Source of the DNA: a virus
Length of the DNA: 24,233 nucleotides
IMG/VR virus record: IMGVR_UViG_3300023109_000138
Location: 1 to 24,233 of that record
Direction: 5' to 3' (one strand)
In this document: piece after piece, positions 5,212-24,096 of the stretch
Layout of the letters: each line of letters begins with the position of its first letter
Numbering within the stretch: position 1 is the first letter of the stretch
Position numbers and translations under genes: made by a program
The notes under the pieces: generated by a model
Told to the model about the DNA's origin: nothing
What the model saw: only the letters and a program-made list of their open reading frames with translations
Database searches by the model: none

Positions 5212-6275
5212 AGATCTAATTCGCTTGATGTGAAATACTTTTCAATTTGTTTCCATGCATCTGATTTTTGCTGGTAACATACTTTCACCAAGTCGTTTAG
5301 GTCCTTGATATTATATGTATCTAGCTTAAAATCAGTAAGAAATTTAGACCACATAAATACTGGTCTACCCTTCTTTAGCTTCTCTGCCATTTTCTTTTTA
5401 CCTGTAGTATCGTTATCAAACATATAACGTACTGTTGCCATCTCATCAAATTCTTCTGTCGATCGACCGGCAGTGGCCAATGCTAATGAGTTGTGCATAA
5501 ACTTTGCGTCAAGTGGTCCTTCAAATAGAGTTACTGGCTGTTGGAAATTAACCTGCATAATACCAAATAGCGTTGATGCCTTTGCAAGTTTATTTAATTC
5601 CTCTTGTGGTAACTCAAGTGGTTTATTCCACTCTTCATAGAGTTTAGGTAGATCATAAGTCAAATACCTTGACCCATAGCCTTTCATTCGTCTGGATTGT
5701 GCGCCGATAATTTTACCTTCCATTCCCTTATTTAAAATCCAAAGGCGATTACCTTTAGGGGAAAATAAGAACTCATCAGCTTTATTGTGTAACAGCCTAT
5801 CTTTAAGCTGAAACCATATCCAGTCTCCTGGTTCAATTTTTTTAGCGCCAAATATCTGTTTAAACTCTGCTACAGTTAGTGCCTTCTCTTGGACGCTAGC
5901 AAGTGAGGCGTTTTGTAATACTTGTTCTTGACTAACCTGAGTCTTATTGGCTTTAATATAGTCAATAATAGTAAATGAGTCGCCTGAATTAGGCATTCTC
6001 ACTTGATGGTCTTTTAATAGTCCATAAAGATTAGTATGGTGTGAACAATTGTAGCAATGATACTGAAGCGTATCCCAATACATGTTACCTCTCTTCTTGG
6101 TATCATCTTCATGGGAATCACCACAATAAGGACACGCCAGGGTTATACGCCCTGGCATGTCTTTAAGTAGTTGCTTGTTAGGAGTAGTATGATGTTCTAC
6201 ACAAACTTGTTTTAGTGCTACTTTAATTCTACTCTTAAGCTCCTCTGTTATTTGTATATTAGAGGTTGAGGTCAT
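5199..6275 (-). CDS. 61: DNA primase, T4 gp61 type
   Basis: At 358 aa it is slightly longer than T4 gp61 (342 aa). An N-terminal zinc ribbon is seen as C48-P-Y-C51 and C74-Y-N-C77 with aromatic surroundings, typical of DnaG/gp61 primases. A TOPRIM-like catalytic core follows: FEGPLD (251-256) supplies the conserved glutamate, and MFDND (285-289) the DxD acidic pair. In T4, gp61 works with the gp41 helicase in the primosome to make short RNA primers for Okazaki fragments. The gene overlaps the end of gp32 by 17 nt, implying coupled translation, and its own end overlaps the next small ORF. The next methionine is residue 40, so the ATG at 6275 is the likely start. No gp41 helicase is in view. 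Confidence 0.93.
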   Translation of the reverse strand: MTSTSNIQITEELKSRIKVALKQVCVEHHTTPNKQLLKDMPGRITLACPYCGDSHEDDTKKRGNMYWDTLQYHCYNCSHHTNLYGLLKDHQVRMPNSGDSFTIIDYIKANKTQVSQEQVLQNASLASVQEKALTVAEFKQIFGAKKIEPGDWIWFQLKDRLLHNKADEFLFSPKGNRLWILNKGMEGKIIGAQSRRMKGYGSRYLTYDLPKLYEEWNKPLELPQEELNKLAKASTLFGIMQVNFQQPVTLFEGPLDAKFMHNSLALATAGRSTEEFDEMATVRYMFDNDTTGKKKMAEKLKKGRPVFMWSKFLTDFKLDTYNIKDLNDLVKVCYQQKSDAWKQIEKYFTSSELDLWYV

Positions 6276-7191
6276 TCAAGAAAGAATCTAAATCATCATC
6301 CGTGTTTGCCTTCGCTGGTTCTTCAGTCTTAGTTGCTGTTGCTGTTGCTGTTGCAGCTGCTACTGGAGTTGCTTCTCTCTGTGGCTCTGCCTTTGGAGCA
6401 GTTTTTGTAGCCGGAGTTGAAGTTACCTCTGCGATAGAATCACCTGGATTTAGATACATTCTTAGAACGTTATTTACGAATGCTCTTGTGTCTTCATCCC
6501 AAGCTTTGTAGTCATAGCCTGCAAGTGAAGGAGCGCCTTCTAGTTCTGCTTTAATAGATGTCATAGTATCTTGAGATCTTTCCGCTGGAGAGTCTCCCAT
6601 TACGATAGCTGATTTGTTAGCCGAGAATTTCGACTTATCATAGTTATTATATTCACCTTGTCTTGTGATAACTAACTCAAAGTTCTTACCTTCGAAAAGG
6701 TCGAATACTTGTGTTGGCTCACCGAAATCAGGCTTCAATTCTGAGTCGATTTTCTCTTTGATCTTGTAACCAAACTTGAATACTTTGTAAGTACCCTCTA
6801 GTTCTGGGTTTTGTGGATCTTTAATAATTTTGATAAGAGAATAATACTGTTGACGTCTCTTTAATTTCTCTGATGACTTACGGTCTACTGCAGAATCTGA
6901 TTTTCTTAATTTCCAGAATACATCTGCAATTGGACAGTGTTCACCAATTGTTTGAGGAGAGTCTACTAATTTACCATCTCCATTAGAGTTAGTTAACCAG
7001 TGTACGTACTTTTGAATCAGAGATTTTCTTGGGTTCTCTGGGTTTGGAACAAAACGCACTAGTGCTTTGTAAGTTCCGTCTTTGCCGTCATCGGCAGTTG
7101 GTTTGTAAACTTCGTTTACGGTTGTTCTTTCAGGCTGGTGTGTTTCCACATCTTCCACGCCTAAGTTAAAAATGTCAAATGAATCGCTCAT
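6259..7191 (-). CDS. 32: Single-stranded DNA-binding protein gp32
   Basis: The protein has 310 aa (T4 gp32 has 301). A polar N-terminal segment is followed by an OB-fold core (about 40-245) containing YKALVRFVPNPENP and the VHWLTNSNGDG region. An Ala/Thr/Pro-rich linker spans about 255-295, and the acidic tail DDDLDSFLNDLNL (298-310) is the classic protein-interaction tail of gp32. In T4, gp32 coats single-stranded DNA and recruits polymerase, primase, UvsX/UvsY and gp59. Oddity: of the T4 zinc ligands (His64, Cys77, Cys87, Cys90), His64 aligns and there is a Cys at 86, but it is the only cysteine in the protein, so the zinc site appears lost. It heads the gp32-primase-ORF-uvsY-uvsW cluster and is preceded by an 87-nt AT-rich leader. 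Confidence 0.93.
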   Translation of the reverse strand: MSDSFDIFNLGVEDVETHQPERTTVNEVYKPTADDGKDGTYKALVRFVPNPENPRKSLIQKYVHWLTNSNGDGKLVDSPQTIGEHCPIADVFWKLRKSDSAVDRKSSEKLKRRQQYYSLIKIIKDPQNPELEGTYKVFKFGYKIKEKIDSELKPDFGEPTQVFDLFEGKNFELVITRQGEYNNYDKSKFSANKSAIVMGDSPAERSQDTMTSIKAELEGAPSLAGYDYKAWDEDTRAFVNNVLRMYLNPGDSIAEVTSTPATKTAPKAEPQREATPVAAATATATATKTEEPAKANTDDDLDSFLNDLNL

Positions 7192-7278: not shown

Positions 7279-7473
7279 TCAATCTAGTGTTAAAATAGCT
7301 GGACAGCGCCCAGACCTTGAGTCTGCAGGCAATTCCTTCCAAGTCCCGTCCTCTTGCTTAATCAGCCCTGATTTGTGTAGCAACTCCTCACGTTCTTGCG
7401 AAGTGATTGCGTTGGCTTCCACCATTTGTTTGAGAATCTCATTGAGACGGAAGTAGTCCGCTGTTATCAACAT
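7279..7473 (-). CDS. Small hypothetical protein upstream of gp32
   Basis: The protein has 64 aa, starting MLITADYFRLNEILKQ and ending ILTLD. It looks like a small soluble helical protein with a KSGLIKQEDGTWKEL segment. The family is not recognised. Support for reality: the exact GATATATAATA element lies 28 nt before the ATG, an A-rich leader (AAACAAAAG) follows, and the local base composition is richer in G+C than the flanking non-coding DNA. It is the first gene leftward from the divergent regulatory region and may be co-transcribed with gp32 and the replication genes. Confidence 0.6.
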   Translation of the reverse strand: MLITADYFRLNEILKQMVEANAITSQEREELLHKSGLIKQEDGTWKELPADSRSGRCPAILTLD

Positions 7474-7500: not shown

Positions 7501-7511
7501 TATTATATATC
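7501..7511 (-). promoter_or_regulatory. Candidate promoter element GATATATAATA facing left (64-aa ORF / gp32 block)
   Basis: Exact minus-strand copy of GATATATAATA within TAGATATATAATA, ending 28 nt from the ATG at 7473. The same 13-mer sits on the plus strand at 7590-7602, making a divergent pair. An A-rich AATAAACAAAAG leader lies between the element and the start. The upstream edge overlaps the palindrome at 7509-7522. Promoter function is inferred from repeated occurrence at gene starts. Confidence 0.55.
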
Positions 7512-7537: not shown

Positions 7538-7575
7538 ATGTTAATAACTTTTTTGCAAAATAAGTGCATTAACAT
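7538..7575. repeat. 8-bp inverted repeat in the divergent intergenic region
   Basis: ATGTTAAT (7538-7545) and ATTAACAT (7568-7575) are perfect reverse complements separated by 22 nt, between the two divergent GATATATAATA elements. The spacing (about 30 bp centre to centre, close to three helical turns) would place both half-sites on one face of the DNA. No stop or start codon depends on this sequence. A regulatory role is speculative. Confidence 0.3.
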
Positions 7576-7591
7576 GCTAAAAAAATAGCTA

Positions 7592-7602
7592 GATATATAA
7601 TA
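7592..7602 (+). promoter_or_regulatory. Candidate promoter element GATATATAATA driving the GH17 gene
   Basis: The only plus-strand copy of GATATATAATA found, 25 nt upstream of the ATG at 7628. Flanks match the left-facing copy (TAGATATATAATA, then A/T bases, then TAAACAAA). If the spacing follows T4 late promoters, transcription would begin near 7607 with a leader of about 21 nt. Its presence ties the inverted GH17 cassette to the same expression class as neighbouring phage genes. Inferred. Confidence 0.55.
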
Positions 7603-7627
7603 CATAGATTAAACAAATTATATAGAA

Positions 7628-8608
7628 ATGACAGCTAATCAAATATTAGGAAACTCAGATTACCCGATGATCGCGTATAGTGGATTTAGAGGCAAGTCTA
7701 GAGACGTGGAACCAACCATGGAACAGATCAAAGAAGATCTACAATTACTTGCTTGGAGTGGATATAAAGTCGTAAAGACTTACGATCTTCAACATGAGTT
7801 TGCTTCAAATGTACTTAAAGCTATTAAAGAGCTAAAGGCTGAGAATGAAAACTTTGAGATGTATGTAATGTTAGGTACATGGATAGAATGTCATAATGCA
7901 TGGACTCCTGAAAAAGATCACTCTAGGGGAAATGCTCAACAAAATAATGATGAAATAAACAAAGCGATTGAGTTAGCTCATGAGTACTCGGACATAGTAA
8001 AAATCATATCTATAGGAAACGAGGCTAGAGTACATTGGTCTCATTGGGATTTTGTTCAACCAAAAGAAATTCTAAAGTGGATTAAAGTTTTCAGAGTCTA
8101 TATAGATAGTGGTTATTTAGATTCTGATCTATGGATTACAAGCTCTGATAATTATGCTGCATGGGGCGGAGAAGAACAATATCAATCAGACGATCTTATA
8201 GAGTTAATTAATGCTGTAGATTATATTTCAGTACATGTATATCCTTATATTACTATTGGAGATCTACCAGAAGGTATAGATTTAATAGAGAATACATTTA
8301 ATACTGCTATAACTCACTTTATGAAAGTAAAAGAATATCTAAATGAAATTGGTGTTGATAAAGCTGTACATATAGGTGAAACCGGCTGGGCAACCAAAGC
8401 ATCAAACTTCTTATCTGATATTTCTAACGAAGAAAACCAGGCTGCGTATCACGATGCTCTTAAAAACTTTGCAAAACATTCTAGAACTTCTATTTGTTTA
8501 TTTTCAGCATTCGACGAACAATGGAAATGTGAATGGGATGCAGACGATCATGAAAACAACTTCGGAATCTTTAACCTAGATAGAACTCTTAAAGGAGCAG
8601 GAAGATAA
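7628..8608 (+). CDS. Glycoside hydrolase family 17 enzyme (beta-1,3-glucanase-like)
   Basis: The protein has 326 aa and forms a single (beta/alpha)8-type catalytic domain. GH17 landmarks are visible: SIGNE at 128-132 with E132 as general acid/base, SVHVYPY at 201-207, GETGW at 250-254 with E251 as nucleophile, and FSAFDEQWK at 292-300 followed by NFGIFNLDRTLK (311-322), which match the EAFDEPWK and HxGLF segments of bacterial GH17 proteins. The family hydrolyses, or sometimes transglycosylates, beta-1,3-glucans such as laminarin. There is no signal peptide, membrane segment or carbohydrate-binding module, so it would act in the cytoplasm, be released at lysis, or ride on the virion. It reads opposite to all structural and replication genes, yet has the phage-wide GATATATAATA element upstream, which suggests an established phage gene. 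Family call is strong; substrate and location are inferred. Confidence 0.9.
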   Translation: MTANQILGNSDYPMIAYSGFRGKSRDVEPTMEQIKEDLQLLAWSGYKVVKTYDLQHEFASNVLKAIKELKAENENFEMYVMLGTWIECHNAWTPEKDHSRGNAQQNNDEINKAIELAHEYSDIVKIISIGNEARVHWSHWDFVQPKEILKWIKVFRVYIDSGYLDSDLWITSSDNYAAWGGEEQYQSDDLIELINAVDYISVHVYPYITIGDLPEGIDLIENTFNTAITHFMKVKEYLNEIGVDKAVHIGETGWATKASNFLSDISNEENQAAYHDALKNFAKHSRTSICLFSAFDEQWKCEWDADDHENNFGIFNLDRTLKGAGR

Positions 8609-8634
8609 TCTTACCAAACATCAACTAAAATTAC

Positions 8635-8646: not shown

Positions 8647-8832
8647 ATGTCATGGGACCACAGGCCTTGGGAAATGCAATCACGCCAACGCTATGAAATA
8701 GAGTGGGAAAGACGTGAGTTTAAACGGCTTGAAATAGCTGAAGAACTAAGACTTGAAAAAAAGTTGAATAAAATTGAAACCTTTTCTGGGAAGTCGCATA
8801 TAAGGCATGTCTTTAAGGCCAAAGAAAGATAA
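8647..8832 (+). CDS. Small highly charged protein after the GH17 gene
   Basis: The protein has 61 aa, starting MSWDHRPWEMQSRQRYEIEW and ending HVFKAKER. It is rich in Arg, Lys, Glu and Trp; residues about 15-42 would form a long charged amphipathic helix, and the C-terminal tail is basic. The family is not recognised. The start is fixed by AGGAGG six bases upstream. It follows the GH17 stop by 38 nt on the same strand and is probably on the same transcript. Base composition is more GC-rich than its neighbours, as is the repeat region that follows, which may mean a different origin from the surrounding phage DNA. Confidence 0.65.
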   Translation: MSWDHRPWEMQSRQRYEIEWERREFKRLEIAEELRLEKKLNKIETFSGKSHIRHVFKAKER

Positions 8833-8919: not shown

Positions 8920-9633
8920 TTAGTCTGGCAAATTTTCCCCAAGTTGCTGAAGCAAATAATGATTAAGGAACCAAGCATCGACTAGATCATCAAATGGTTT
9001 TGGAACCTTCTTAACCTCATCACCTATTTCATTTACACAATAATTAAATAAAGAAGTCTTAGCTAACTCTGGACTCTCTACTATATTATTTAAAAAGGCT
9101 ACCCAAAGTGCTAACTTGTTCATGTTACCTTTACCTGCATGTTTCTTAATAGTTGTGGGTGCAACGGTCAGTAAATTTTTGACCTCGAGTTGGCATATCA
9201 TTTGTTCTTTTAGGATTGCAGCTCCTGCTGCCATGTCAATCATATTATTAGTTCCCATCTTAGAACCATACGACGTACCCTCAAATGCTATGTGATAATC
9301 TTGTTTGCTGTTTGTTATGCTTATGATTAGATTAATAATATCATCCGCTGTTTTGATGTACCTCTTAATCTTTGCAAATTCGTTTTTGGAGTAATCCCCA
9401 ACTGTTAAATGCCAATCGGGTTGGTGTACAAGAGTAACGTCTTTAAATAGACTTATTTCTTCTTGCCTCTTTTGTTCGGCTTTTGTTCCTGAACCAGCTT
9501 TAATATAGGAGATAAAGTGATATTCATTCGTATCAGACTGCCAGACACAAATGCCAGGGGAATTAAGCGAGAAGTCAACAGTAACTAAATTCAAATTAGA
9601 ATCTTTTACCCATCGCAGCACCAAGAGCGGCAC
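8920..9633 (-). CDS. RuvC-like (RNase H-fold) Holliday-junction nuclease
   Basis: Up to 237 aa from a GTG at 9633. The fold signature of RuvC-type resolvases is visible: first strand VTVDFSLNSPG with catalytic D20, IAFEGTSYGSK with E118, then APTTIKKHAGKGNMNK (158-173), which I recognise from phage RuvC-like proteins, and FDDLVDAWFL (214-223) with the C-terminal aspartates D215/D216 and D219. The likely role is cleavage of branched DNA before packaging, the job of endonuclease VII (gp49) in T4. The start is uncertain: the GTG overlaps the 123-aa gene by 38 nt, while a TTG at 9594 lies one base after that gene's stop and would place the catalytic Asp at residue 7, normal for RuvC-like enzymes. 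I favour the later start biologically but list the longest frame. Confidence 0.78.
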   Translation of the reverse strand: MPLLVLRWVKDSNLNLVTVDFSLNSPGICVWQSDTNEYHFISYIKAGSGTKAEQKRQEEISLFKDVTLVHQPDWHLTVGDYSKNEFAKIKRYIKTADDIINLIISITNSKQDYHIAFEGTSYGSKMGTNNMIDMAAGAAILKEQMICQLEVKNLLTVAPTTIKKHAGKGNMNKLALWVAFLNNIVESPELAKTSLFNYCVNEIGDEVKKVPKPFDDLVDAWFLNHYLLQQLGENLPD

Positions 9634-9981: not shown

Positions 9982-10533
9982 TTAATCTATTTCTAAATCT
10001 AGGCTCATCTTATTGTAAACAAAAGCACATTCAAACGTATTGAAGTCAGCTACATTTTCTGCCATATTTAGATTTAACTCGTTAATAGAGTTTAGTATTA
10101 TTTTTTCAAATTTCATAAAAGCAACAGAACTACCTTCTGCATCTAGAATCCTTAAAGTAAATGGTTCGATATAAGGCTCTTTAGTAGTTCTTGCATAATA
10201 GTATAATAGAGTGTCCATCATAATCCAATAGTTAATAAAACCATCTAATAACTGGAAAGTAACTGTAAATTCTCTTGTTATTGTATTTTGGATTGGGACT
10301 GCACCTCTATGGTATCTAGTTGTACCATCATTATCTGCTTGTGTAATTGGGTCAAACGTAATACCAGGAATATTAACACCTTGTATAGAATAGTTAACAA
10401 AATCCACTGGCTCTGCTAACAGTCCACCTGGAATTCTGTTTAAATACTTTTTGTACTTATCTACAACTTCCTCTGGAATAAACTTTCTAGGAAATCTAAA
10501 ATCGTATGCGTTATTTCTACTATTTAAAATCAT
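9982..10533 (-). CDS. Tail-tube/baseplate-like structural protein (gp19/gp54-type fold suspected)
   Basis: The protein has 183 aa. The N-terminus, FRFPRKFIPEEVVDKYKKYL (12-31), leads into IPGGLLAEPVDFVNYSIQGVNIPGI, then REFTVTFQLLDGFINYWIMMDTLLYYY (87-113) and a beta-rich end, FNTFECAFVYNKMSLDLEID. This order (loop, alternating beta strands, a 'TVTF-LDG-NYW' strand-helix unit) resembles small tail-tube-type proteins of T4-like phages, and I have seen similar sequences in marine myovirus tail clusters. No single diagnostic residue confirms it. The ATG overlaps the stop of the 689-aa gene by one base (TAATG), so the two are translationally coupled and probably assemble together. Confidence 0.5.
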   Translation of the reverse strand: MILNSRNNAYDFRFPRKFIPEEVVDKYKKYLNRIPGGLLAEPVDFVNYSIQGVNIPGITFDPITQADNDGTTRYHRGAVPIQNTITREFTVTFQLLDGFINYWIMMDTLLYYYARTTKEPYIEPFTLRILDAEGSSVAFMKFEKIILNSINELNLNMAENVADFNTFECAFVYNKMSLDLEID

Positions 10534-12605: not shown

Positions 12606-13412
12606 TTAAAATTGTAAAAATTTAGGTGACCAGTAAAGTCCCACACCTATTGAAGGTCCTGTGCTAATTACTTGATCGTTATTTAAGTTAATACCATATC
12701 CAACTCCAAAACCAACTAACCATCTAGATTTCTTTTGGTCTTGTCTATTTAATCTGCTATTTACTAAATTAATATTTTCAATATCTTTAATTTCTAATCC
12801 AGGGTAGCTTGTAGATAATTTTAATCTATCAGCACCATCTACGTTCTCAATTGCTGCCATTAAGCTTAGAGTTTGTGTTAACTCAAATTTAGTTTCTAAT
12901 ACTTTAAACTGTTCAAATTCATATTTAAAGGTAGAAAACCCTGTTAATTCTCTAGAGTTACCATTGCCAAAATCTTCAGCAGATGAAAATGTAACTTTAG
13001 TAGTTGTCGTGTCTATAGTCTCAGTTGTAGTAGTTACATTTAGACTATCTTTAATTTCTAAGTTAGCTGAGATTAACGAGTTAACGTCTTTTAAATCTTT
13101 ATTTAATGCTAACGCTTTCTGATACTTCTTCGTTAACTTAGCTTGACTAGATTGCATATTTGATAAATCAAACTCATAAGATCTAATCTGAGCAAGCTGA
13201 TCGCCATTATCATTTCTTAATATAGTAACAGAGTCTTGAGCTGCTTTAAAATTATTAAGTTGTCTACCAGCATCTTCTTGTGCTAACTTGACATCTTGTT
13301 TTAAATTCTCAATACTATTACACTGTCTAAGAAATAACATAACGACAAGAGCTCCAGCGATAAATGTCACTAGAGTCTTGTTCGAGAGTATATTTTTTAT
13401 TTTGTCTTTCAT
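12606..13412 (-). CDS. Membrane-anchored coiled-coil protein with a beta-rich C-terminus (spanin-like candidate)
   Basis: The protein has 268 aa. Residues 14-28 (LVTFIAGALVVMLFL) form one transmembrane helix or signal anchor followed by RQC. A predicted coiled coil runs from about 33 to 115, then a Thr-rich hinge (VTTTTETIDTTTTKV, 126-140). The C-terminal part is beta-rich and ends GFGVGYGINL, GPSIGVGLYWSPKFLQF: glycine-alternating strands with a terminal Phe, as in outer-membrane beta-signal sequences. Such a layout could bridge inner and outer membranes like an Rz-type or unimolecular spanin, though length and C-terminus are unlike known spanins. It lies among tail genes (21 nt after the fibre gene, 3 nt before the 689-aa gene) with no holin or endolysin visible beside it, so a structural role is possible. 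Confidence 0.55.
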   Translation of the reverse strand: MKDKIKNILSNKTLVTFIAGALVVMLFLRQCNSIENLKQDVKLAQEDAGRQLNNFKAAQDSVTILRNDNGDQLAQIRSYEFDLSNMQSSQAKLTKKYQKALALNKDLKDVNSLISANLEIKDSLNVTTTTETIDTTTTKVTFSSAEDFGNGNSRELTGFSTFKYEFEQFKVLETKFELTQTLSLMAAIENVDGADRLKLSTSYPGLEIKDIENINLVNSRLNRQDQKKSRWLVGFGVGYGINLNNDQVISTGPSIGVGLYWSPKFLQF

Positions 13413-13433: not shown

Positions 13434-15521
13434 CTATGAACAAGTCCCGTTATAGTTCAAACCACCGGCACCTGAAACCCATACCGGACCATTCGGGAAT
13501 GAATCGTAATCAACCTGATGACATATTGTTAATGAAGGAGTTCCGTATGGACAATTGTTGTTTTGTGTACCAATTGGAGATGACATTTGTACAGTTCCGT
13601 CACAGTCACGCCATTGGATTACATTACACTCGTTTTGGTAAAAACTAGTTACAACATACGATTGGCAAAGCGGCGGTGCTTGTGTTGTGGCAGGAGTCTG
13701 TGTTGTGGTTGCAACCACATTCCATTTTGCCCAAAGAGTTAATTTATCATAAATTCCTTCACTTCCCGTATATACTGATGTCGGTGGTACAGCTCCAGCA
13801 CTATAATTTGTACCGGTAGTGTACTGACTAGTATTCCAAGAATCAAATGTGTAACCGTCACGTACGTATGCTGTATTAGCTGCTACTGATAATGGGTGTG
13901 TACCAGTTTGATCTGGGATTCCCGTTGACCCACTACCAAGAGTACCTCCATTAGGATTGTAAGTAATTTTATAGAGCTCTTCCCCGACAGCAGTGTCAGT
14001 ATCACTTACTTGTTGCCCAGCATTACTATATCCACTAGGTACTGTAACGACTAAAGTGTATGTATTACTACCTTCTCCTAATACAGTTGGTGTAAACGAA
14101 ACTATAGTACCGTTATTCGACCAAGTCATGACAGCATTCGCCCCTTCTACGCCGTTAGCTACATTTACGTTAATATTACTAGCTGTATATAATGGTAAAG
14201 GAGTTTGTGTTGTTGGCGTCGGAGCCTGTGTTGTTGGCGTCGGAGCTTGTGTTGTTGGCGTCGGCGCTTGTGTTGTTGCATCAGCAGCATTCTGTGAAAC
14301 AGCGATAGTTGCTGTAGTATTCGGATCTTGTGGGTGTGCAATAACTAAGTTACCACTTCTAGCAGAATATGATGTATTCGCTGCTACTGTAATATCAATA
14401 TAACCTGGATCAGATGCATCAAAAGTAATCCAGCTAGGTTTACTAGTAATATCAATTCCACTAAATATTAAGTCATCAGTAGGACCTGTTTGGATAAACA
14501 CTTCTAGACCTCCTCCTGTATTACTTAATCCTGTAAGTACGTTTGGATTTTCAAAGCTAATTGAATAATTAGTTGGTGCTTCTGTAGTCGAAGAAGTCGT
14601 AGTCACTTGAACACCAGTCCAATCATTACCGGAATTATCATACTCGTAACTTTCAGTAGATGGCACTAATTCAATACTTGGATCAGTACTCGTATAAGGA
14701 GTACCATATTGATTAACTAAAAGATCTCCATCTGGTTCAATGTTAATAGTATAACCTCCACCGCCTTGACCACAAGGAGCCATACAGAAGTCTACCCAAG
14801 TAATATTAGTTCCGTCAGAAATACCACCTTGGAATACATTAGTACTAGAGTTATATCTAATAAGACCAGTATCTGGAGATAATGTATTATTTGCCGGTAC
14901 TTTAAATGATGAGTTATCTGCAATAGAAAATCTATCAAAAGCAGCATTAAACTCTACATTAACTGCAGCATCTAAATCAAATGATTTTCCAAAAGTATAT
15001 TTAACAGAGTTATCTGCCTCATCACTAGAAGATATATCAATAGATACATTTTTACCATTATTATCAGCACCGTGCCATAGTCTTAAATATTCATCAGAGT
15101 CTAAACCACCTTGTACACCCTGTGCATGTTTACCAATAGTTAATGTAGCTCTTAAAGCGGTCAACCCATCGTAGGGTGTATTTTCATTAAACATCTGATC
15201 CCCTAAAAATATAGTAGGGTGTAAATTATCAGTTGTAATTTTAGGCTTTAATATAGAATAAGTCTCATTAGCTGAGTCAGGATTGACATTAATAACATGC
15301 CATGGCGAAGTTGTAGCGCCTGTTAAACCTTGTGGCCCAACATCACCTTTTTGCCCCTTGCTACCAGTGTTACCCTTGGTACCTTGTATACCTTGGGAAC
15401 CCTTCTGACCAGAAGGACCTCCTCCATTCGCTACAATTTGATCAAAGTTATAGTTTATCTTCTCAAACTTAATAGCGTCCGAATCACTAGGGTGTAGTAT
15501 TTCTTGTATATTAATGGCCAT
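13434..15521 (-). CDS. Modular tail-fibre/adhesin with collagen-like, BACON-like and InlB-type repeats
   Basis: The protein has 695 aa. Order of parts: an N-terminal attachment-like segment, ILHPSDSDAIKFEKINYNFDQI (8-29); a collagen-like Gly-X-Y stretch (35-69, GPSGQKGSQGIQG and onward) expected to form a trimeric stalk; a beta-rich fibre body containing TGLIRYNSSTNVFQGG (218-233), a common phage-fibre motif; a BACON-like domain (about 318-411, with PSWITF and the final IAVSQNA); a three-copy TTQAPTP linker (416-440); a 'GYSN' module (445-513); an InlB/Listeria-Bacteroides repeat-like module (516-602: YKITYNPNGG, GYTFDSWNT, LTLWAKWN); a second Thr/Pro linker; and a Cys-rich C-terminal domain (619-695). 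BACON and InlB-type modules suggest glycan or surface binding. The gene starts 4 nt after the 2856-aa gene. Virion adhesin is a strong inference. Confidence 0.85.
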   Translation of the reverse strand: MAINIQEILHPSDSDAIKFEKINYNFDQIVANGGGPSGQKGSQGIQGTKGNTGSKGQKGDVGPQGLTGATTSPWHVINVNPDSANETYSILKPKITTDNLHPTIFLGDQMFNENTPYDGLTALRATLTIGKHAQGVQGGLDSDEYLRLWHGADNNGKNVSIDISSSDEADNSVKYTFGKSFDLDAAVNVEFNAAFDRFSIADNSSFKVPANNTLSPDTGLIRYNSSTNVFQGGISDGTNITWVDFCMAPCGQGGGGYTINIEPDGDLLVNQYGTPYTSTDPSIELVPSTESYEYDNSGNDWTGVQVTTTSSTTEAPTNYSISFENPNVLTGLSNTGGGLEVFIQTGPTDDLIFSGIDITSKPSWITFDASDPGYIDITVAANTSYSARSGNLVIAHPQDPNTTATIAVSQNAADATTQAPTPTTQAPTPTTQAPTPTTQTPLPLYTASNINVNVANGVEGANAVMTWSNNGTIVSFTPTVLGEGSNTYTLVVTVPSGYSNAGQQVSDTDTAVGEELYKITYNPNGGTLGSGSTGIPDQTGTHPLSVAANTAYVRDGYTFDSWNTSQYTTGTNYSAGAVPPTSVYTGSEGIYDKLTLWAKWNVVATTTQTPATTQAPPLCQSYVVTSFYQNECNVIQWRDCDGTVQMSSPIGTQNNNCPYGTPSLTICHQVDYDSFPNGPVWVSGAGGLNYNGTCS
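14202..14276 (-). repeat. 21-bp tandem repeats encoding TTQAPTP
   Basis: Three and a half near-identical 21-bp units (plus strand GCTTGTGTTGTTGGCGTCGG-like) encode the Thr/Pro linker at residues 416-440 of the 695-aa fibre protein. The linker separates the BACON-like domain from the 'GYSN' module. Because the repeat lacks stops on both strands, it creates a spurious long plus-strand open frame here. Confidence 0.85.
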
Positions 15522-15525
15522 CTTC

Positions 15526-18500
15526 TTATGACGTTATTTTTATCATAGGTCTTATTCTATAAGAGTAACCTAATCTTTTATTATATATCAATCTAAAATT
15601 AAGGGGCTTTTGTTCGTGAGCCCTAAAAGTAAAGTTTTGATCTTGTGTATATCCACCATCGTCTAATGCGTCGATAGTAGTTGCATTTTCAAAAGCTGAA
15701 AACTGTCCTTTGATTCTACGCGTAAATAGCTTAATTTGATTTAGGCTAAATAGGTTGACCAAATTTTCTTCAATATAAAGTTGAGCATCATCAACCAAAG
15801 TGGTTTTATCTTCAGCAGAATCAGCCACTGCAACATATTGTTGAATTGCATTGAATACTCCATCCGACGATAATTTATCTTTAATAGTATCTGTGATATA
15901 AAAATCTACAATAATGTTATCTTTATTTTCAAATATAACTAAATCAGTAGTATTAGTATTATCTAATAAAATTACGTCTTGTTCTTCTTCTGACCCAACA
16001 TACTCTGAAGTAAAATTAAGTAAATTATAGCTATCTTTTACTTTCATAATAGTTGAAGCCAAATATGATTTCTCTTCTTTAGTTTCAAATGTACCAGGTA
16101 CCTGCTCAATATTTCCACCGGATAAAGATCGAGTATAATAGTTTTTATCCCATGAAGATTTAAACACATGTACGTCTTTTTTATCAATAGCAACTTCACC
16201 AATTAATGGGTAAAGAGGCAGTTTATCTGTAGACGTAGATAGTTTAGTTACCGACGCGGCGTTAAATTCATTTACCTTTCTATAGAAATGGTTTTTAATA
16301 TAACCCCATTGATTGTCATGAGTACCACCGTCGTATATAAATCCTAAGTTAAATGCAACACCACATCTATTATATCTCTTATAGTAATCTTTTGCAAGAT
16401 TAATTTCATCTATATCTGTTAGAGAGTGTTTATACATTTGTTCTTCTAAGATTATCTCTGTAGAATCCGATGTACTCTGTAAAGTATTGGTTTTCATGTG
16501 GCTATATACATCTGTAAAAGTAACCACAGGTTTAGTATCAACTGTATATCCACCATTTTGTCTAACTAGGAATGGATAGTATGTAAAACCATCTGTTAAA
16601 TCATAACCAATATTACCTGAAAACAGTTTAAAAGATTCTGGCTTATCCGTATCAGGAATAGTTTGTACTTTAGAGTCTTTTACAATTTCAGTACCATCTT
16701 CTAAATTAATAACAAACTGGTTATTTAAAACTTGACCATCGTTATTTACGGTTGTAAATACTATATTGTTAGGTTCTCTTAATAACATTGTCGCTACATC
16801 TCTAGCGGATAGTGCGTCTAAAATAGATTTATATGCATTTATACCTCCTTTTTCATAAGTATATTCTGCAGTTGACTGTAAATACGCAGGTATATTTTGT
16901 AAATTTGCATTTGGTGTTAGTGGAACTCCATTTGAATCTAACCCGTCACCATTATCACCATCTGAAATATCTTTAGGTGGTTGTGCTAATACTAAAGTAT
17001 CTTGTCCATCTAACCTTGCGATATTTAATCTTAAAAACATCTCACCGAATGGAGATTCTATCTTAACTATTAAGTTACCAAACTTAGAATCATCATCCTT
17101 ATTAATTTGCTCTAAAAATTGAGGAATTGAACCATCAACATGCTGTAATCCATTTACCTCTAAATAATTAGAAGCACTTGGGTCTGTAAAATTAGCATCT
17201 CGTAAGTTAAGAGCTCCATCGATTTTAATATCTGAATATTCAAATGTTAGGTTTTCTGATTTCCAAACTAACGAATGATTTAATTCATATAATAATTTTC
17301 TATTTAAAGTACCATCTGACCATAAATCATCTAGACTTAATGAAATCATAAAGACAACAAATTTAAACTTTTTATTTTGTATTACTTCATAGTCGATACC
17401 ATTTGATTCTTGTGCTGTTTTTACATTTAGTAAAATACTAAATCTATATCCATTAAATTCAGAAGACTTAATAAAATCTACTGGATTAGAGGCAGTAAAC
17501 TCTTTTCTACCTTTAAATATAAATTTTAAACCTTTAAATATAGTACTTGCAAATGCAGTATTATTACCACCTTCAACTCTAGTATACTTTTTCTGTCTAT
17601 CTGTTTTTACAAAAGTCTTATAGTTATTATTGCCCTTTGTCTCGAATCCTTCTGTTACAAAGAATCTATCAAAATAATCATAATTAGTATCTTTAAATAT
17701 AGCAGGAGTAATCTCAAAGTTATCCATAAAGTTAATATAACTAAAAGAATCATTTAGCCTATATACAGGATTAGCATCACTACCTACGTTATTCTTAAAA
17801 TAAGCTGGTAAATTATTAATGTAAAACCATTCATGTGTCATACCTAATCTATTTCTACCATCGGCAGATAAATCAGGTGCAAAATTAGATCTACCGAAAG
17901 CCTCATTAGCGTTTAGGTAGTATGGTTGTTCTCTAACAGTTAAGCTATCTTTTAAAACCCATTTATTAATAGAAGGAACTACTCTTGACTTGATAGCATA
18001 TTCTTTTAAATAGTTTTCTTGTAATCTATCAAACTCACTAGTAATTTGATTTTCATTAAACTCATCTGCTTGTTCTTCTAATAAAATATCACTTAATCCG
18101 TTAAAATAATCAACTGGATTTAGCGTGTATTCTGTATTCTCTTTACTACCAAATGGGTATATGTCATTTGAATCATCTTGTTCAGGCTCGTATGCTATAT
18201 TAGCAGGAGTCTCATAAACTAACTCTTTTAGGTCTGAGTTTGAAGTATCATAAAAATCAAAATTCATATCATGAATATCAAACGCAGAAAATAAACCTAC
18301 TTTAACTAGATTATCTGCATAGGTTTTAATTTCACCAGCCTCAATCGTATTAGGTTTTTCCAATACAATTTTCTTATATTGTAAAGGTAATCTTTCAATA
18401 TCATCTACAATATCAATAACTTTATTATAGATCCCTCTAGATTTTGTATTAATATAATCATTTACATTAATATCACTAGCAGAATCTAATGTTACTAATA

Positions 18501-21500
18501 TTGACTTGCCAGTTGAATTACCGCCATTGAAATAATAAATTGAACTATTATTAATTGTATTACAATTCTCTGGGCTATCACAATCATTAATATCTAATCT
18601 AAGTAAATTATTTACATCTAAATTATTTGAATCAACACTAATCCACTGATTAGCATTTGCATTAGGGATTGCAATACCAGCAGATAATAGTCTATAACCT
18701 TGTACATCTGTTTTAATATAGAAGTGGTCAGCTCCATCGTATGATAGTGCTGTAAACCCATTATCTATAGAATTAATAGATTTTACTATTGCACTTGTAA
18801 CTTGAGGTATGGTTCCTTGGTTAGAGAAATTAACTCCACCAAATTGACCTGCTGGTATATCTAATGCAAAGAATGTATTATTATCAATATCATAAGGTAC
18901 TTGCAGCTCTTCAATTCTAACAATAGAATTATTAACACCATTTGATTGCCATGGAATAAAATCAGGCTGTAATGGTTTTAATGTAGCTCTTTTTTCTGAC
19001 AATATAATAGATCTATCTGACTCTACCTCAATGTTTAAATTATTGTAAAGTTCTGGATATACCTTTGCTCCAGTAAATTGGTCTTCCTCTCCAATTCTAT
19101 TTTGAATATAAGTAGCAACACCTTGTATGCCCTGTCCATCAATATAAATAGGTCCAAACTCTAACAATTGCCCATCAGTAGGATTAACTATTGTAAATTT
19201 CCAATCCTCTTGTCCTAATGATTGCTGTGGAATTAGCCTAGTAAACTTAAGTCTATATGTCTGTTCTTTTGAAGGGAATATTGCAAACCCATCGTTTACA
19301 GCAGGGTTCTCTAAGATGTTTACCTTTACAAAGTCACTACCTGGTTTTCCATCAACCTTTATATCGATTGAATTTCCAGTTTCAGCTAATTTAATTTCTG
19401 AAGCAATTGAATTTCTAGAATCTTCAACATTTAACTCTAGGTTACTAGGGTTATATACTGTCTTTGGAGATATTTTATAGAATTTATCAGATGTTGCCGC
19501 GTACCCTAATGTAGGAGTTTCAGATATTAATTTATATGGTGGAATAGCAGATGAATTTTCGCTATTAATATATGAATTAACATTTTTAAACTTAAGTCTT
19601 CCTGTATTTGCAGAATCTAATGTACCGTAACCTGAATCAATATCATTTACATATAAACCAAAATATCTACTAACAGAATAATCAGTAGCAGCGTCATCAT
19701 TAAATAGGAACTCTAGGTTAATTAAATTTGCACATGCTAATTTATTTCTTTGGAACCCACTTGTAATTAACTCATTAGCATCGATTAACGTAGAATCTTG
19801 ACTAATAAAATCGCTATCTAAATACTCTCCTTTAGAAGTAAACCCTCCATTTTCTAAATCAATACCATTAAATGAAGACCTTTGTAATTTATCAAAGTTC
19901 ATTGTAATTGGAGTTTTAGGGAATGACTCAGATTGTATATGGTTTCTAATATATGTACCTAATTCAGAATCTCTAGATAAATCAAATGTTTTTACAATTT
20001 CACTATTCTTTAAAATCTCTTTTATATTATCTAAATTAGATCGTGTATCAAAGTCTAAAGTACCAATAGGATCTTTTACTCTAAAGATTACAAATTTGTT
20101 AGGTATTGTTTTATCTAACCAAATAGGAGCCATCATTCTAAAGTCTTCATCATGTATCTTAGAATAGTTATAGACTGTACCGTAATGGTAATCCTCTTCT
20201 ATTTGATGTTCAAAAGTATCTTGTACTGCAAAGTTTGAGTAAGACTCTTTTATTTTGTATATTTGGTCTGCAGGTGTTTTAGTATTTTTAAAGAATCTTT
20301 GTAGATCGTATGACCACTTTCCATCTTTATTAACTGCCCATTTTTTATATTCAACTGATGCTAATTCTTTTGTAGCCTCTATTGATTCAATATACATTTT
20401 ACCATTACTATTAACTACTAACTTCGCGTTAGTTGATAATTTAGGGTTTGTTCTTAATAGTGGTTTAGAAATATTATCTAAACTATAATTCTTTTCTAGG
20501 TTAAAATTAGGAATCGATTTGTTAATAATATCAGCATCATCAACAGTCGCCAATGTGTATGTTTGGGGCAACTCTGTTTGCATCAAACAACCTTCACAAT
20601 CAGTATATCCATAATTAATTACAGCCGCAGAGGATAGCCCTAAATCAACTGGGTTAACCTGAACAGTTCTAATAGAATCATTATTATATTCTGTTATATT
20701 ATCTAATATATCTTGAGCATCATCAATATTAACAGCAACAATTTTATGTTGCATTGACATACACTCTAATACAGTAGGACCATTTATTATTCCTCTATCA
20801 CCAATAACCTCGTGTAATTCTTTTATATAAGAACTGCCATTATCAGTATCTTTATGTAAACCATCTATGACATATAAATTCCAATAAGGAGATCCATCTT
20901 GGAATCTCGCAACACATGATAAAAATGCATAAAATACATTTTCTCTAGAAGCAATCGACTGACCTACTTCAAATGTAGAAGAACCTGCAGGTCTTTCAAA
21001 CTGAGTACTACATGTACCTAAAATTATATTAGCATCTTCTGTACTAGCATTACCAGTACTACCTTGTAATAAATCTGTATCGTTTCCAACTACGCCCTTC
21101 CATACATAGTTACCGGTATAACCACTTGAGTTATAGTTTTCCCAAACAGCAAATCGCCTATCTGTGTCTAATGAATAAGTTGCATTATTGAAACTATCAA
21201 CGTTAACCTTACTAGCTAAGAACGTAGTACTTGACCATGATAATCCATAATCAACTTGGTTCGCAGCCTCTAATGAAGTAAAAGGTACTATATTATGTTG
21301 TAATATGTATTGTAATTTAGCCAATTCAGATAAAGACCCTACTCCATCTTCTTGATTAGCTCTAAAATAAAGTTTTGTAAGAACTAAATCACTGTCATCA
21401 GCTAAACAAACATTATCAATTCTAATAGGATCTACTGTATTATAGTAAACACCAACATCGTATGTTTGGTATTTTATCCTTGGCGGGCAATCTTGTGCAT

Positions 21501-24096
21501 ATCCATCACTTCCTTCTACCCAAGCACCTTGTTGAAATTCAAAGTATTTGTCAGTATCGGCTGAAACACTATCATTATAGTAACCTGTTAATGCTGTAAA
21601 CTCAGCAGGCGCAGAATTACTAAGATATGTATTAGCTATAACTTCATCAGTAAATATCTGTCCTCCTGCTGTAATAACTTGGCTTAATAAGACTGGCTGA
21701 TTACTTGGATTTGTAGCATCTATTACGTTTTGCCAAACGGTTTGGCCTCCGTACTCATAAGTGCCTGCACATAAATCATTTACATCTTCATCAAAGTTAA
21801 CAGTTATTTCCCATGCATTCCCTAAACTAACTTGACATTCTACAATAGTTTCTATTACATCTATGCCAAGCTGTATAGCTTTAGCATCACCACCACTAGT
21901 AGCCGAAACCGATAACCATCTAGTAGCTGGGTTAGAAGTACTAATCGCCGTTCCAAAAGCTGCATCTAAATAAATTTGATCTCCTGACGTTAAATCAGCT
22001 ATACTAGTATTCCCGCTAGTTGCATCTAAATAACCAGTATTACTTCTAGTTGCTGAACAAGCTTCGTCTGAGTTTGTTACAAATGCAGAATACTTTATTG
22101 CAATGGCCGCGGTTGGATTAACAGTTATCACTACAGTATATGGGGTGGGCGCATCTTCATACCCATCATTAACCTGTATTACAAATGTAATTTGATCAGG
22201 CTGTGTTATACTATAGTTAGCTTCATACGTCCAAGCACCAGTTGTATTGTCTAAATCTAAAGAACCTGGGTTAGTAATGCCATTCGAAGAAGTTGGCCCT
22301 GATACGATACTCCATACTAATTGATCTCCAGTATTAGAGTCAGAAGCAGATGCTGTACCACCAGTACTACTCCATTGATCTAAAGTAGTATTAAATGAAG
22401 TATTTGAAAATGTTGGAGGATTATTACCGGGAGCTAAAGTTCTTAATGTAATTATACCCACACCAGTTGATTCTTCACCATCTGTATCTGTTACCTTGTA
22501 ATAAAAATACTCTTCTAGATTACTATTATTAGGTGTTAAATTAAGACCACTCTTTTTTGTATAAGTAAACGTAAAAGCACCTACATTTGAGTTAACTACA
22601 AAATCACCGTTCGTTAAACTTGCTGCAACTTGTGCTTCAGTTTGTGGAGTACCTGTATTATCACATAAAGTATATGTTAAAAGAGCCGACGCATCATTAT
22701 CATCTGTTGAACCAGCTGAGGCAAGATCTTGTTGTGTTGATATATTAGTAGTACCAAATCCATTAATAGAATATGTTGCATTTCCAGGAACTGGGGCTTG
22801 ATTTTGTGGCGGGTTAATTGTAACTGTAATAGTTCCAACTGTAGTTCCACCGTCACTATCTATTGCAGTATATGAAAAAGCATCATTACCCGTATAATCA
22901 GTATTTGGCGTATATATTATAGATGGCTGATTTCCAGTTAAAACAGCACTTGTCGATAAATTTGACCCCTGTGCATTTGCATCCTGAATATTACCATTTT
23001 GCGGCACACTAGTTATTTCAATAGTTAATCCGTTACCAAATTGATCTTCAGCATCAGATACATTACTCTGTTGCCCTGAGCCAACTGACCAACCACTACC
23101 ACTAGCAAAATTTAAAGTTATTGGAGTACCATTCATAGTCATAGTCCTACTAAAATCAGGAGCTACTGGAAGGTTATTACCACCGGTTTGTGAAATTAAT
23201 AAACTTGTAGAATTTACACCATTAACCCCTGGATGTCGTAATGTAAAAGCCTGGCTTCTACCACTAGCAGTTGGGTTAGCATTAATATTAAATTCAATAC
23301 TACCACCAGTTACAGTTGAAGATACATTAGTTGAAATCCAAGCAACTGTACTAGGATTAGGGTCAATGTGACTCGAGTTAAATGCAGTTGAGTTATTTGT
23401 AATTGTAAAAATCCTAGTTGTACTAGATGCCGCGGCCGGAGCATTATATGTGGCATCATTATTCCAAGCAATCGCTGGAGCTAAAGTTGTCGTTGTACCC
23501 GTCCCACTAACTTGGCATGTTATAGCAACACCGGAATTTGAATATCCAGCAGGTGCAATAACATCAACATCATAATTTTGAGTACCCAATGCATATTGAG
23601 GAGGGTCAACACTATCTATTGTACCTTCATCTACCGAAGCTATAACATTAATTCCGACTGCACCGGCTTGTATTGACACATTAGCTTCAGAACATGTAAA
23701 CTCTGGCAATGTTGTCGTTGTTGTAGGCTCCTCAGTTGTCGTTGTTGGGGCCTCAGTTGTCGTTGTTGGGGCCTCAGTTGTCGTACTAGTCGTTATTATT
23801 GACGCGGATATTAAACCAGAATTAGATATTTGTGTGGCAACAATACTACCATCATTTGGTTGTTGGAATGCGTAGAAATCTTGTCCCCCTGCAAATCCAC
23901 TACTTAAAGTACCTGAAGCTGCATCGGGATTATTATCATTCACCTGATAAACAATGTCACCGGTCGTAACATAACCCACATTATTACTGTCATTAACCCA
24001 AGCAATAATTGTACTTCCTGTCCCCCAGTTTGCTATCGCACTGGCAGCAGTAGAAAATCCAGATGTAGTATTAAGTGTAAAACTTATATTTGCCAT
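15526..24096 (-). CDS. Giant (2856-aa) modular virion structural protein/adhesin
   Basis: Order of parts: a small N-terminal beta domain (1-100); a TTTEAPT linker (103-130); a 'GYSN' module (133-195); a second TTTT linker; a BACON-like domain (about 206-305, AWIST to LLISQTGG); three cadherin-like or VCBS-like Ig domains (about 310-430, 431-552, 558-662; the first has IIYTPNTDYTGNDAFSYTAIDSDGG, the third is announced by NNPPTF); a Cys-containing beta region with ACSA...GYL and GDQIYLDAAFGTAI (about 665-1185); then a long C-terminal region (about 1190-2856) without repeats, including LRTNPKLSTNAKLVV (1214-1228). I recall the latter from large structural proteins of Bacteroidetes T4-like phages. 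The adhesive modules are at the N-terminus, so the C-terminal two thirds is probably the part built into the particle. No signal peptide or membrane segment. A one-mismatch relative of the promoter motif lies 35 nt upstream. Confidence 0.8.
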   Translation of the reverse strand: MANISFTLNTTSGFSTAASAIANWGTGSTIIAWVNDSNNVGYVTTGDIVYQVNDNNPDAASGTLSSGFAGGQDFYAFQQPNDGSIVATQISNSGLISASIITTSTTTEAPTTTTEAPTTTTEEPTTTTTLPEFTCSEANVSIQAGAVGINVIASVDEGTIDSVDPPQYALGTQNYDVDVIAPAGYSNSGVAITCQVSGTGTTTTLAPAIAWNNDATYNAPAAASSTTRIFTITNNSTAFNSSHIDPNPSTVAWISTNVSSTVTGGSIEFNINANPTASGRSQAFTLRHPGVNGVNSTSLLISQTGGNNLPVAPDFSRTMTMNGTPITLNFASGSGWSVGSGQQSNVSDAEDQFGNGLTIEITSVPQNGNIQDANAQGSNLSTSAVLTGNQPSIIYTPNTDYTGNDAFSYTAIDSDGGTTVGTITVTINPPQNQAPVPGNATYSINGFGTTNISTQQDLASAGSTDDNDASALLTYTLCDNTGTPQTEAQVAASLTNGDFVVNSNVGAFTFTYTKKSGLNLTPNNSNLEEYFYYKVTDTDGEESTGVGIITLRTLAPGNNPPTFSNTSFNTTLDQWSSTGGTASASDSNTGDQLVWSIVSGPTSSNGITNPGSLDLDNTTGAWTYEANYSITQPDQITFVIQVNDGYEDAPTPYTVVITVNPTAAIAIKYSAFVTNSDEACSATRSNTGYLDATSGNTSIADLTSGDQIYLDAAFGTAISTSNPATRWLSVSATSGGDAKAIQLGIDVIETIVECQVSLGNAWEITVNFDEDVNDLCAGTYEYGGQTVWQNVIDATNPSNQPVLLSQVITAGGQIFTDEVIANTYLSNSAPAEFTALTGYYNDSVSADTDKYFEFQQGAWVEGSDGYAQDCPPRIKYQTYDVGVYYNTVDPIRIDNVCLADDSDLVLTKLYFRANQEDGVGSLSELAKLQYILQHNIVPFTSLEAANQVDYGLSWSSTTFLASKVNVDSFNNATYSLDTDRRFAVWENYNSSGYTGNYVWKGVVGNDTDLLQGSTGNASTEDANIILGTCSTQFERPAGSSTFEVGQSIASRENVFYAFLSCVARFQDGSPYWNLYVIDGLHKDTDNGSSYIKELHEVIGDRGIINGPTVLECMSMQHKIVAVNIDDAQDILDNITEYNNDSIRTVQVNPVDLGLSSAAVINYGYTDCEGCLMQTELPQTYTLATVDDADIINKSIPNFNLEKNYSLDNISKPLLRTNPKLSTNAKLVVNSNGKMYIESIEATKELASVEYKKWAVNKDGKWSYDLQRFFKNTKTPADQIYKIKESYSNFAVQDTFEHQIEEDYHYGTVYNYSKIHDEDFRMMAPIWLDKTIPNKFVIFRVKDPIGTLDFDTRSNLDNIKEILKNSEIVKTFDLSRDSELGTYIRNHIQSESFPKTPITMNFDKLQRSSFNGIDLENGGFTSKGEYLDSDFISQDSTLIDANELITSGFQRNKLACANLINLEFLFNDDAATDYSVSRYFGLYVNDIDSGYGTLDSANTGRLKFKNVNSYINSENSSAIPPYKLISETPTLGYAATSDKFYKISPKTVYNPSNLELNVEDSRNSIASEIKLAETGNSIDIKVDGKPGSDFVKVNILENPAVNDGFAIFPSKEQTYRLKFTRLIPQQSLGQEDWKFTIVNPTDGQLLEFGPIYIDGQGIQGVATYIQNRIGEEDQFTGAKVYPELYNNLNIEVESDRSIILSEKRATLKPLQPDFIPWQSNGVNNSIVRIEELQVPYDIDNNTFFALDIPAGQFGGVNFSNQGTIPQVTSAIVKSINSIDNGFTALSYDGADHFYIKTDVQGYRLLSAGIAIPNANANQWISVDSNNLDVNNLLRLDINDCDSPENCNTINNSSIYYFNGGNSTGKSILVTLDSASDINVNDYINTKSRGIYNKVIDIVDDIERLPLQYKKIVLEKPNTIEAGEIKTYADNLVKVGLFSAFDIHDMNFDFYDTSNSDLKELVYETPANIAYEPEQDDSNDIYPFGSKENTEYTLNPVDYFNGLSDILLEEQADEFNENQITSEFDRLQENYLKEYAIKSRVVPSINKWVLKDSLTVREQPYYLNANEAFGRSNFAPDLSADGRNRLGMTHEWFYINNLPAYFKNNVGSDANPVYRLNDSFSYINFMDNFEITPAIFKDTNYDYFDRFFVTEGFETKGNNNYKTFVKTDRQKKYTRVEGGNNTAFASTIFKGLKFIFKGRKEFTASNPVDFIKSSEFNGYRFSILLNVKTAQESNGIDYEVIQNKKFKFVVFMISLSLDDLWSDGTLNRKLLYELNHSLVWKSENLTFEYSDIKIDGALNLRDANFTDPSASNYLEVNGLQHVDGSIPQFLEQINKDDDSKFGNLIVKIESPFGEMFLRLNIARLDGQDTLVLAQPPKDISDGDNGDGLDSNGVPLTPNANLQNIPAYLQSTAEYTYEKGGINAYKSILDALSARDVATMLLREPNNIVFTTVNNDGQVLNNQFVINLEDGTEIVKDSKVQTIPDTDKPESFKLFSGNIGYDLTDGFTYYPFLVRQNGGYTVDTKPVVTFTDVYSHMKTNTLQSTSDSTEIILEEQMYKHSLTDIDEINLAKDYYKRYNRCGVAFNLGFIYDGGTHDNQWGYIKNHFYRKVNEFNAASVTKLSTSTDKLPLYPLIGEVAIDKKDVHVFKSSWDKNYYTRSLSGGNIEQVPGTFETKEEKSYLASTIMKVKDSYNLLNFTSEYVGSEEEQDVILLDNTNTTDLVIFENKDNIIVDFYITDTIKDKLSSDGVFNAIQQYVAVADSAEDKTTLVDDAQLYIEENLVNLFSLNQIKLFTRRIKGQFSAFENATTIDALDDGGYTQDQNFTFRAHEQKPLNFRLIYNKRLGYSYRIRPMIKITS
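15579..15589 (-). promoter_or_regulatory. Candidate promoter element GATATATAATA inside the end of the giant gene
   Basis: Exact minus-strand copy of the 11-mer, within the last 65 bases of the 2856-aa gene and 57 nt upstream of the 695-aa fibre gene. It would let the fibre and downstream tail genes be transcribed independently of the 8.6-kb gene before them. Coding constraint could also account for the sequence (it encodes part of LIYNKRL), so confidence is lower than for the intergenic copies. Confidence 0.4.
23707..23790 (-). repeat. 21-bp tandem repeats encoding TTTEAPT
   Basis: Units of 21 bp (plus strand CCTCAGTTGTCGTTGTTGGGG-like) encode the linker TTTEAPT-TTTEAPT-TTTEEPT at residues 103-130 of the 2856-aa protein. 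This matches in period and composition the TTQAPTP linker of the 695-aa protein, and in both proteins a 'GYSN' module follows the linker. Confidence 0.85.

Follow-up and report, generated by a model that had tools for sequence, protein, structure and literature searches.

A trimmed, apparently intact GH17 laminarinase gene behind a putative late promoter in a T4-like phage of a likely Bacteroidota host

Introduction

Why would a phage carry a laminarinase gene on the strand opposite to its neighbours, and where would the enzyme meet its substrate? Few labile carbon pools in the ocean match that of laminarin, an algal sugar polymer in whose degradation Bacteroidota play a major part. We addressed these questions for a viral stretch of 24,233 nucleotides (positions 1 to 24,233 of IMG/VR record IMGVR_UViG_3300023109_000138; hereafter the window), which contains a predicted GH17 endo-beta-1,3-glucanase (laminarinase) gene at 7628..8608 (+ strand; ATG start, 326 aa), with E132 as the putative acid/base and E251 as the putative nucleophile.

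Results

The phage protein is a member of GH17

The original prediction had assigned the open reading frame to GH17 from its sequence alone. Its best solved relative was FbGH17A (6FCG), an endo-laminarinase from a marine Formosa, with a phmmer E-value of 8.3e-81 over residues 2-320; the identity between the two proteins was 45% in a pairwise sequence alignment and 41% in a structural alignment of the predicted model. That model, generated with AlphaFold2 from 30 sequences (window and bacterial), had a pLDDT of 87.8 and a pTM of 0.89. Foldseek placed 6FCG first (E 2.2e-35) and a Rhizomucor GH17 glucanosyltransferase second, and VIA-align superposed 324 residues of the model on 6FCG at 2.2 A with a Z-score of 44.9, against 28.1 for the next entry. 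Lower ranks also belonged to GH17 (4WTP and plant glucanases). The Pfam profile PF00332 (GH17) matched the C-terminal part only, with 24.8 bits (E 2e-5), below its 28.2-bit cut-off, and searches of PHROGs and NCBIfam with the protein returned no match. By sequence and fold, the phage protein is a GH17 member, far beyond chance, and the predicted family is confirmed by both the strong phmmer match and the modelled structure. Beyond one catalytic domain, the model showed neither a further domain nor an attachment region, in agreement with the earlier claim that a fibre-attachment domain was absent.

Catalytic and glucan-binding residues are largely retained

Both catalytic glutamates, reported previously as present, aligned with columns that were invariant in 80 out of 80 bacterial homologues. 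A docking study of MlGH17A from Muricauda lutaonensis names glucan-contacting residues (PMC13188888), whose numbers we mapped onto the phage protein by alignment offset rather than from the MlGH17A sequence itself. Residues R63, Q93, W123, W130, E170, Y246, E306 and E368 of MlGH17A corresponded to identical residues in the phage protein (R25, Q55, W85, W92, E132, Y207, E251 and E309, respectively). By contrast, E352 (-2 subsite) and N248 (+3 subsite) corresponded to S293 and T209; serine at position 293 also occurred in 3 of the 80 bacterial homologues. Bacterial endo-laminarinases are described as having a long beta3-alpha3 loop, and GH17 transglycosylases as having a shorter one (PMC13188888). 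In the alignment, the phage protein retained W85, W92 and the loop length, and model pLDDT was low near this loop (about 50 at residues 91-100).

Across the 80 homologues, the phage protein retained 70% of the bacterial invariant or near-invariant columns and 9% of the most variable ones, a pattern that fits a constrained enzyme after far divergence. As judged from sequence, the protein is apparently an intact endo-beta-1,3-glucanase/laminarinase, with predicted activity.

The phage gene lacks the ends of its bacterial homologues

The 80 bacterial proteins that we fetched were nearly all from Bacteroidota, the others being from a few Balneolota and from single metagenome-assembled genomes (MAGs) labelled SAR92 and Acidobacteriota. 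All 80 were longer than the phage protein, most having about 420-430 aa, and 76 carried a lipoprotein-type N-terminus with an aligned cysteine. The phage reading frame begins exactly at the mature domain (MTANQILGN), and the lipoprotein signal is absent. A hidden signal peptide or upstream start was rejected because the open frame reaches only 5 codons further (331 aa), which bears out the earlier statement that there is no signal peptide. About 50 C-terminal residues are also missing, bacterial-invariant columns among them; a broken C-terminus with a downstream coding remnant was rejected, as only 38 bp separate the gene from the next reading frame (orf8647). The loop that follows the strand with 'HTYP' at its end is missing as well, and its F and W are present in 79-80 of the 80 bacterial proteins.

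Identity to the aligned homologues ranged from 42 to 49%, with no close one, and the phage protein sat on a very long branch of the tree. Because it was near-equidistant from the homologues and its branch was so long, the tree names no donor, and a recent copy from a sampled host was rejected on the same near-equal distances. Two genome samples (396 and 395 genomes) yielded matches in 47 and 42, respectively, and all FbGH17A-like matches had a longer open frame; no leaderless, likewise truncated bacterial copy was found among the homologues and genome samples examined. These comparisons suggest that the phage enzyme derives from Bacteroidota lipoprotein laminarinases with loss of the signal and the C-terminal extension; the gene may previously have resided in phages not yet sampled. 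Separately, FbGH17A-type genes occurred outside Bacteroidota in L108 (a SAR92 MAG) and L132 (a Thermoanaerobaculia MAG), through either horizontal transfer or mis-binning.

The gene occupies a variable slot between RuvC-like and gp32-like genes

On the left, the gene is flanked by a gp32-like single-stranded DNA-binding protein gene (6259..7191, - strand; Pfam 5e-18) and a small conserved phage reading frame, orf7279 (7279..7473, -). On the right lie a small + strand reading frame, orf8647 (8647..8832; MSWDHRPW..., 61 aa), a RuvC-like resolvase gene (8920..9633, -) and a tail-tube-like gene (9982..10533, -). The inverted position described earlier was thus reproduced: GH17 runs against gp32 on its left and against the RuvC-like and tail-tube-like genes on its right.

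A gp32 scan gathered 80 related phage loci, whose common order was tail tube, orf9596, RuvC-like, slot, orf7279, gp32, primase and UvsW. None of the 80 loci contained GH17, nor did a profile search detect it in 12 longer related records of up to 212 kb. Slot contents varied: 41 relatives had a short slot, and many others carried a two-gene cassette on the opposite strand. This cassette (in L002-L035 and others) encodes two proteins, one of 96-110 aa (SRNKxLLLMGAKxTGSF) and one of the CxxC type with about 50 aa; the cassette sequences tested had no Pfam or PHROGs match. The same slot is filled by a homing endonuclease (NUMOD3; phrog_314) in L074 (8812-9546) and L075, which suggests that the slot is a hot spot for insertions.

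The nearest relatives, L002 and L004 (98% gp32 identity), have two small genes at the GH17 position. DNA homology with them extends to 7567 and starts again at 8616, so the exchanged segment (7568..8615) spans about 1048 bp with GH17 and its promoter, in place of a 548-bp piece with the two small genes. Since orf8647 is kept in many relatives, it lies outside the insert. GH17 has the genomic hallmarks of a viral auxiliary metabolic gene: it is phage-encoded, has phage genes on either side, is missing from close relatives and is of cellular descent. On the alignment with L002 and L004, it is evidently recent cargo in this phage.

Among named phages, the closest in their capsid and gp32 proteins include Tenacibaculum phage PTm1 and the Prevotella Lak phages, and a tail-fibre-like protein (13434-15521, -) combines a collagen-like region with a BACON domain that scores above the Pfam cut-off. 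Given these phages and this domain, the host is likely a member of the Bacteroidota, and a marine host is plausible. Other reading frames in the window include one of 2856 aa (15526-24096, -) that contains Thr-rich repeats as well as a bacterial Ig domain and probably encodes a tail protein or adhesin, and one at 12606-13412 (-) with a weak match to an Rz-like spanin (E 0.003), a candidate lysis gene among tail genes.

A late-type promoter motif came with the insert

The original prediction had noted a promoter motif shared with other phage genes. The motif, GATATATAATA, occurred four times in the window, whereas 0.12 occurrences were expected, which substantiates that claim. The copy before GH17 (7592..7602, +) lies 25 bp before the ATG and is the only one on the + strand; another (7501..7511, -) precedes the divergent orf7279 and is conserved in relatives. 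Across the 80 relatives, we counted 202 copies on the gp32 strand and none on the opposite one, so that the GH17 copy is an exception to this strand rule. Five longer relatives contained 12, 10, 7, 6 and 3 copies, on one strand only in each (38 versus 0), and the reversed-motif control did not occur in them. In the 212-kb relative (L164), the motif precedes the major head protein, tail sheath and tail fibre genes and the connector operon, and also some non-structural operons, including a helicase operon. At 38200-42700 of L164, it precedes an operon whose products match 2OG-Fe(II) oxygenase and glycosyltransferase, and in the window a variant, GATATATACTA, precedes the giant reading frame at 15526-24096. 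No conserved upstream hexamer accompanied GATATATAATA, and a consensus scan detected no sigma-70-type promoter for GH17. From the motif and its gene context, we assign GATATATAATA to a putative class of T4-like late promoters.

The alternative cassette is preceded by a distinct promoter element, TATATTAGTACT, present on both strands of relatives; the long conserved element before this cassette ends in TATATTAGTACTGTAATTAAA. Elements of the form TGCAAAATAATTGCC..TTTTTTTATGTCA..TATATTAGTACTGTAATTAAA stand before small genes on both strands, for example at L189:1147, L192:152 and the L002 slot. The promoter of the replaced cassette is probably of an early class. Of this early-type element, the window keeps only the first 14 bases, the upstream end TGCAAAATAAGTGC (7554..7567, +), and the junction follows directly; because these bases remain and the rest is gone, the left junction lies inside the early-type promoter. 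The insert brought its own copy of the phage late-type motif, replacing an early-type promoter.

Discussion

We propose that the phage took up a Bacteroidota-type laminarinase gene into a variable slot, as a cassette of one gene, and that the cassette came without the lipoprotein signal and C-terminal extension, under the phage's own late-type promoter. The enzyme would then be made alongside virion proteins, build up in the cytoplasm and meet its substrate at lysis, either laminarin in the periplasm and around the cell or beta-1,3-glucan of the host exopolysaccharide. Family, residues, truncation, insertion and promoter motif can be read from the sequence itself, and from them we infer activity, timing, release and benefit; we give roughly even chances to an active, soluble endo-beta-1,3-glucanase that is made late and freed at lysis. 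Release at lysis is preferred because a leaderless, late-made enzyme reaches polymer only when the cell opens. Several points weigh against it. T4-like late transcription begins before lysis, so the enzyme could still act inside the cell, and GATATATAATA also lies upstream of some non-structural operons. Moreover, a free enzyme gives the phage no obvious private benefit, the missing F/W loop may change specificity, and with a single phage sequence selection is not directly measurable.

Among the three roles that the original prediction left open, release at lysis, or else incorporation into virions, is favoured over an early metabolic role by the late-type promoter and the clean removal of the lipoprotein signal, and transglycosylation is disfavoured by the long beta3-alpha3 loop. 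An auxiliary metabolic gene would have the enzyme degrade imported laminarin oligosaccharides in the infected cell, with the glucose supporting phage replication. GH16 laminarinases of marine Bacteroidota viruses have been read in this way (PMC11126160, PMC11019789), and a protein without a signal peptide stays cytoplasmic until lysis. However, in Formosa an MFS-linked GH17 is proposed to split laminarin oligosaccharides at the inner membrane (PMC6246565), so that little polymer is expected in the cytoplasm, and the replacement of an early-type by a late-type promoter speaks against this role without deciding the matter; we regard it as unlikely. The enzyme could instead be packed in or on the particle and clear a beta-1,3-glucan capsule or exopolysaccharide at entry. 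Its promoter class is that of the head, sheath and fibre genes, but the model shows the catalytic domain only, without further domains or an attachment region, and the gene is isolated on the opposite strand and missing in all 80 relatives, which makes a virion depolymerase doubtful.

A change of activity, to a beta-1,3-glucan transglycosylase or towards another host glycan, would suit the replacements S293 (MlGH17A E352) and T209 (MlGH17A N248), the missing F/W loop and the transferase RmBgt17A as second-best fold match (Z 28.1). We nevertheless consider it improbable, given that the protein has kept a long beta3-alpha3 loop and its tryptophans W85 and W92 (PMC13188888), that 6FCG is by far the best match and that S293 also occurs in 3 out of 80 bacterial homologues. 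Finally, the gene was found in one contig only, with no phage relative in IMG/VR or deposited phage genomes, as would suit a neutral passenger or an assembly artefact. Yet the open frame and catalytic residues have been kept despite about 55% divergence, a phage-type promoter lies inside an insert with clean junctions, and none of the bacterial copies seen combines a missing leader with this truncation; there is very little to recommend this explanation.

For release at lysis, a further step can be proposed more tentatively: the refitted lipoprotein laminarinase may turn lysis itself into an event that hydrolyses laminarin in the periplasm and around the host. If so, cell breakdown or virion spread might become easier, and there would be a direct link between phage lysis and the turnover of one of the sea's major carbon stores. 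A late cytosolic laminarinase would enter the lysate rather than the living host, with an ecological effect unlike that of the usual auxiliary-gene account of viral GH16. The locus offers a clean natural experiment, with near-identical phages that have or lack GH17 and two readable promoter classes.

Comparison with known laminarinases

Protein and DNA-pattern scans of IMG/VR, which require exact conserved peptides or readable similarity, detected no other phage GH17; the single DNA-pattern match (L172) read as an unrelated long reading frame. INPHARED contained no phage GH17, and BFVD searched with the phage model returned nothing closer than remote TIM-barrel proteins of about 14% identity, for which GH5 was the best annotation. 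Viral laminarinase genes published for marine Bacteroidota viruses belong to GH16 (PMC11126160, PMC11019789). Like the gene described here, they are viral genes for beta-1,3-glucan hydrolysis with a presumed Bacteroidota host, but GH16 is a beta-jelly roll, unrelated to the phage GH17 in fold and family; no GH16 was found in the 12 relatives examined. A CAZyme list for mangrove soil viruses contains a GH17 1,3-beta-glucanase (PMC6460857), an earlier report of GH17 in viral contigs, given there as a table entry.

The closest characterised enzyme, FbGH17A of Formosa sp. Hel1_33_131 (6FCG; PMC6246565), has in common with the phage protein the GH17 TIM barrel, both catalytic glutamates and the long beta3-alpha3 loop, at 41-45% identity over the whole phage protein. 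FbGH17A belongs to a family of about 430 aa with a signal and a C-terminal extension, whereas the phage protein has neither and lacks the F/W loop. Viral laminarinases of GH16, and one viral GH17 as a table entry, were thus already known; what appears new is a trimmed, soluble GH17 enzyme put under a late-type promoter by cassette exchange.
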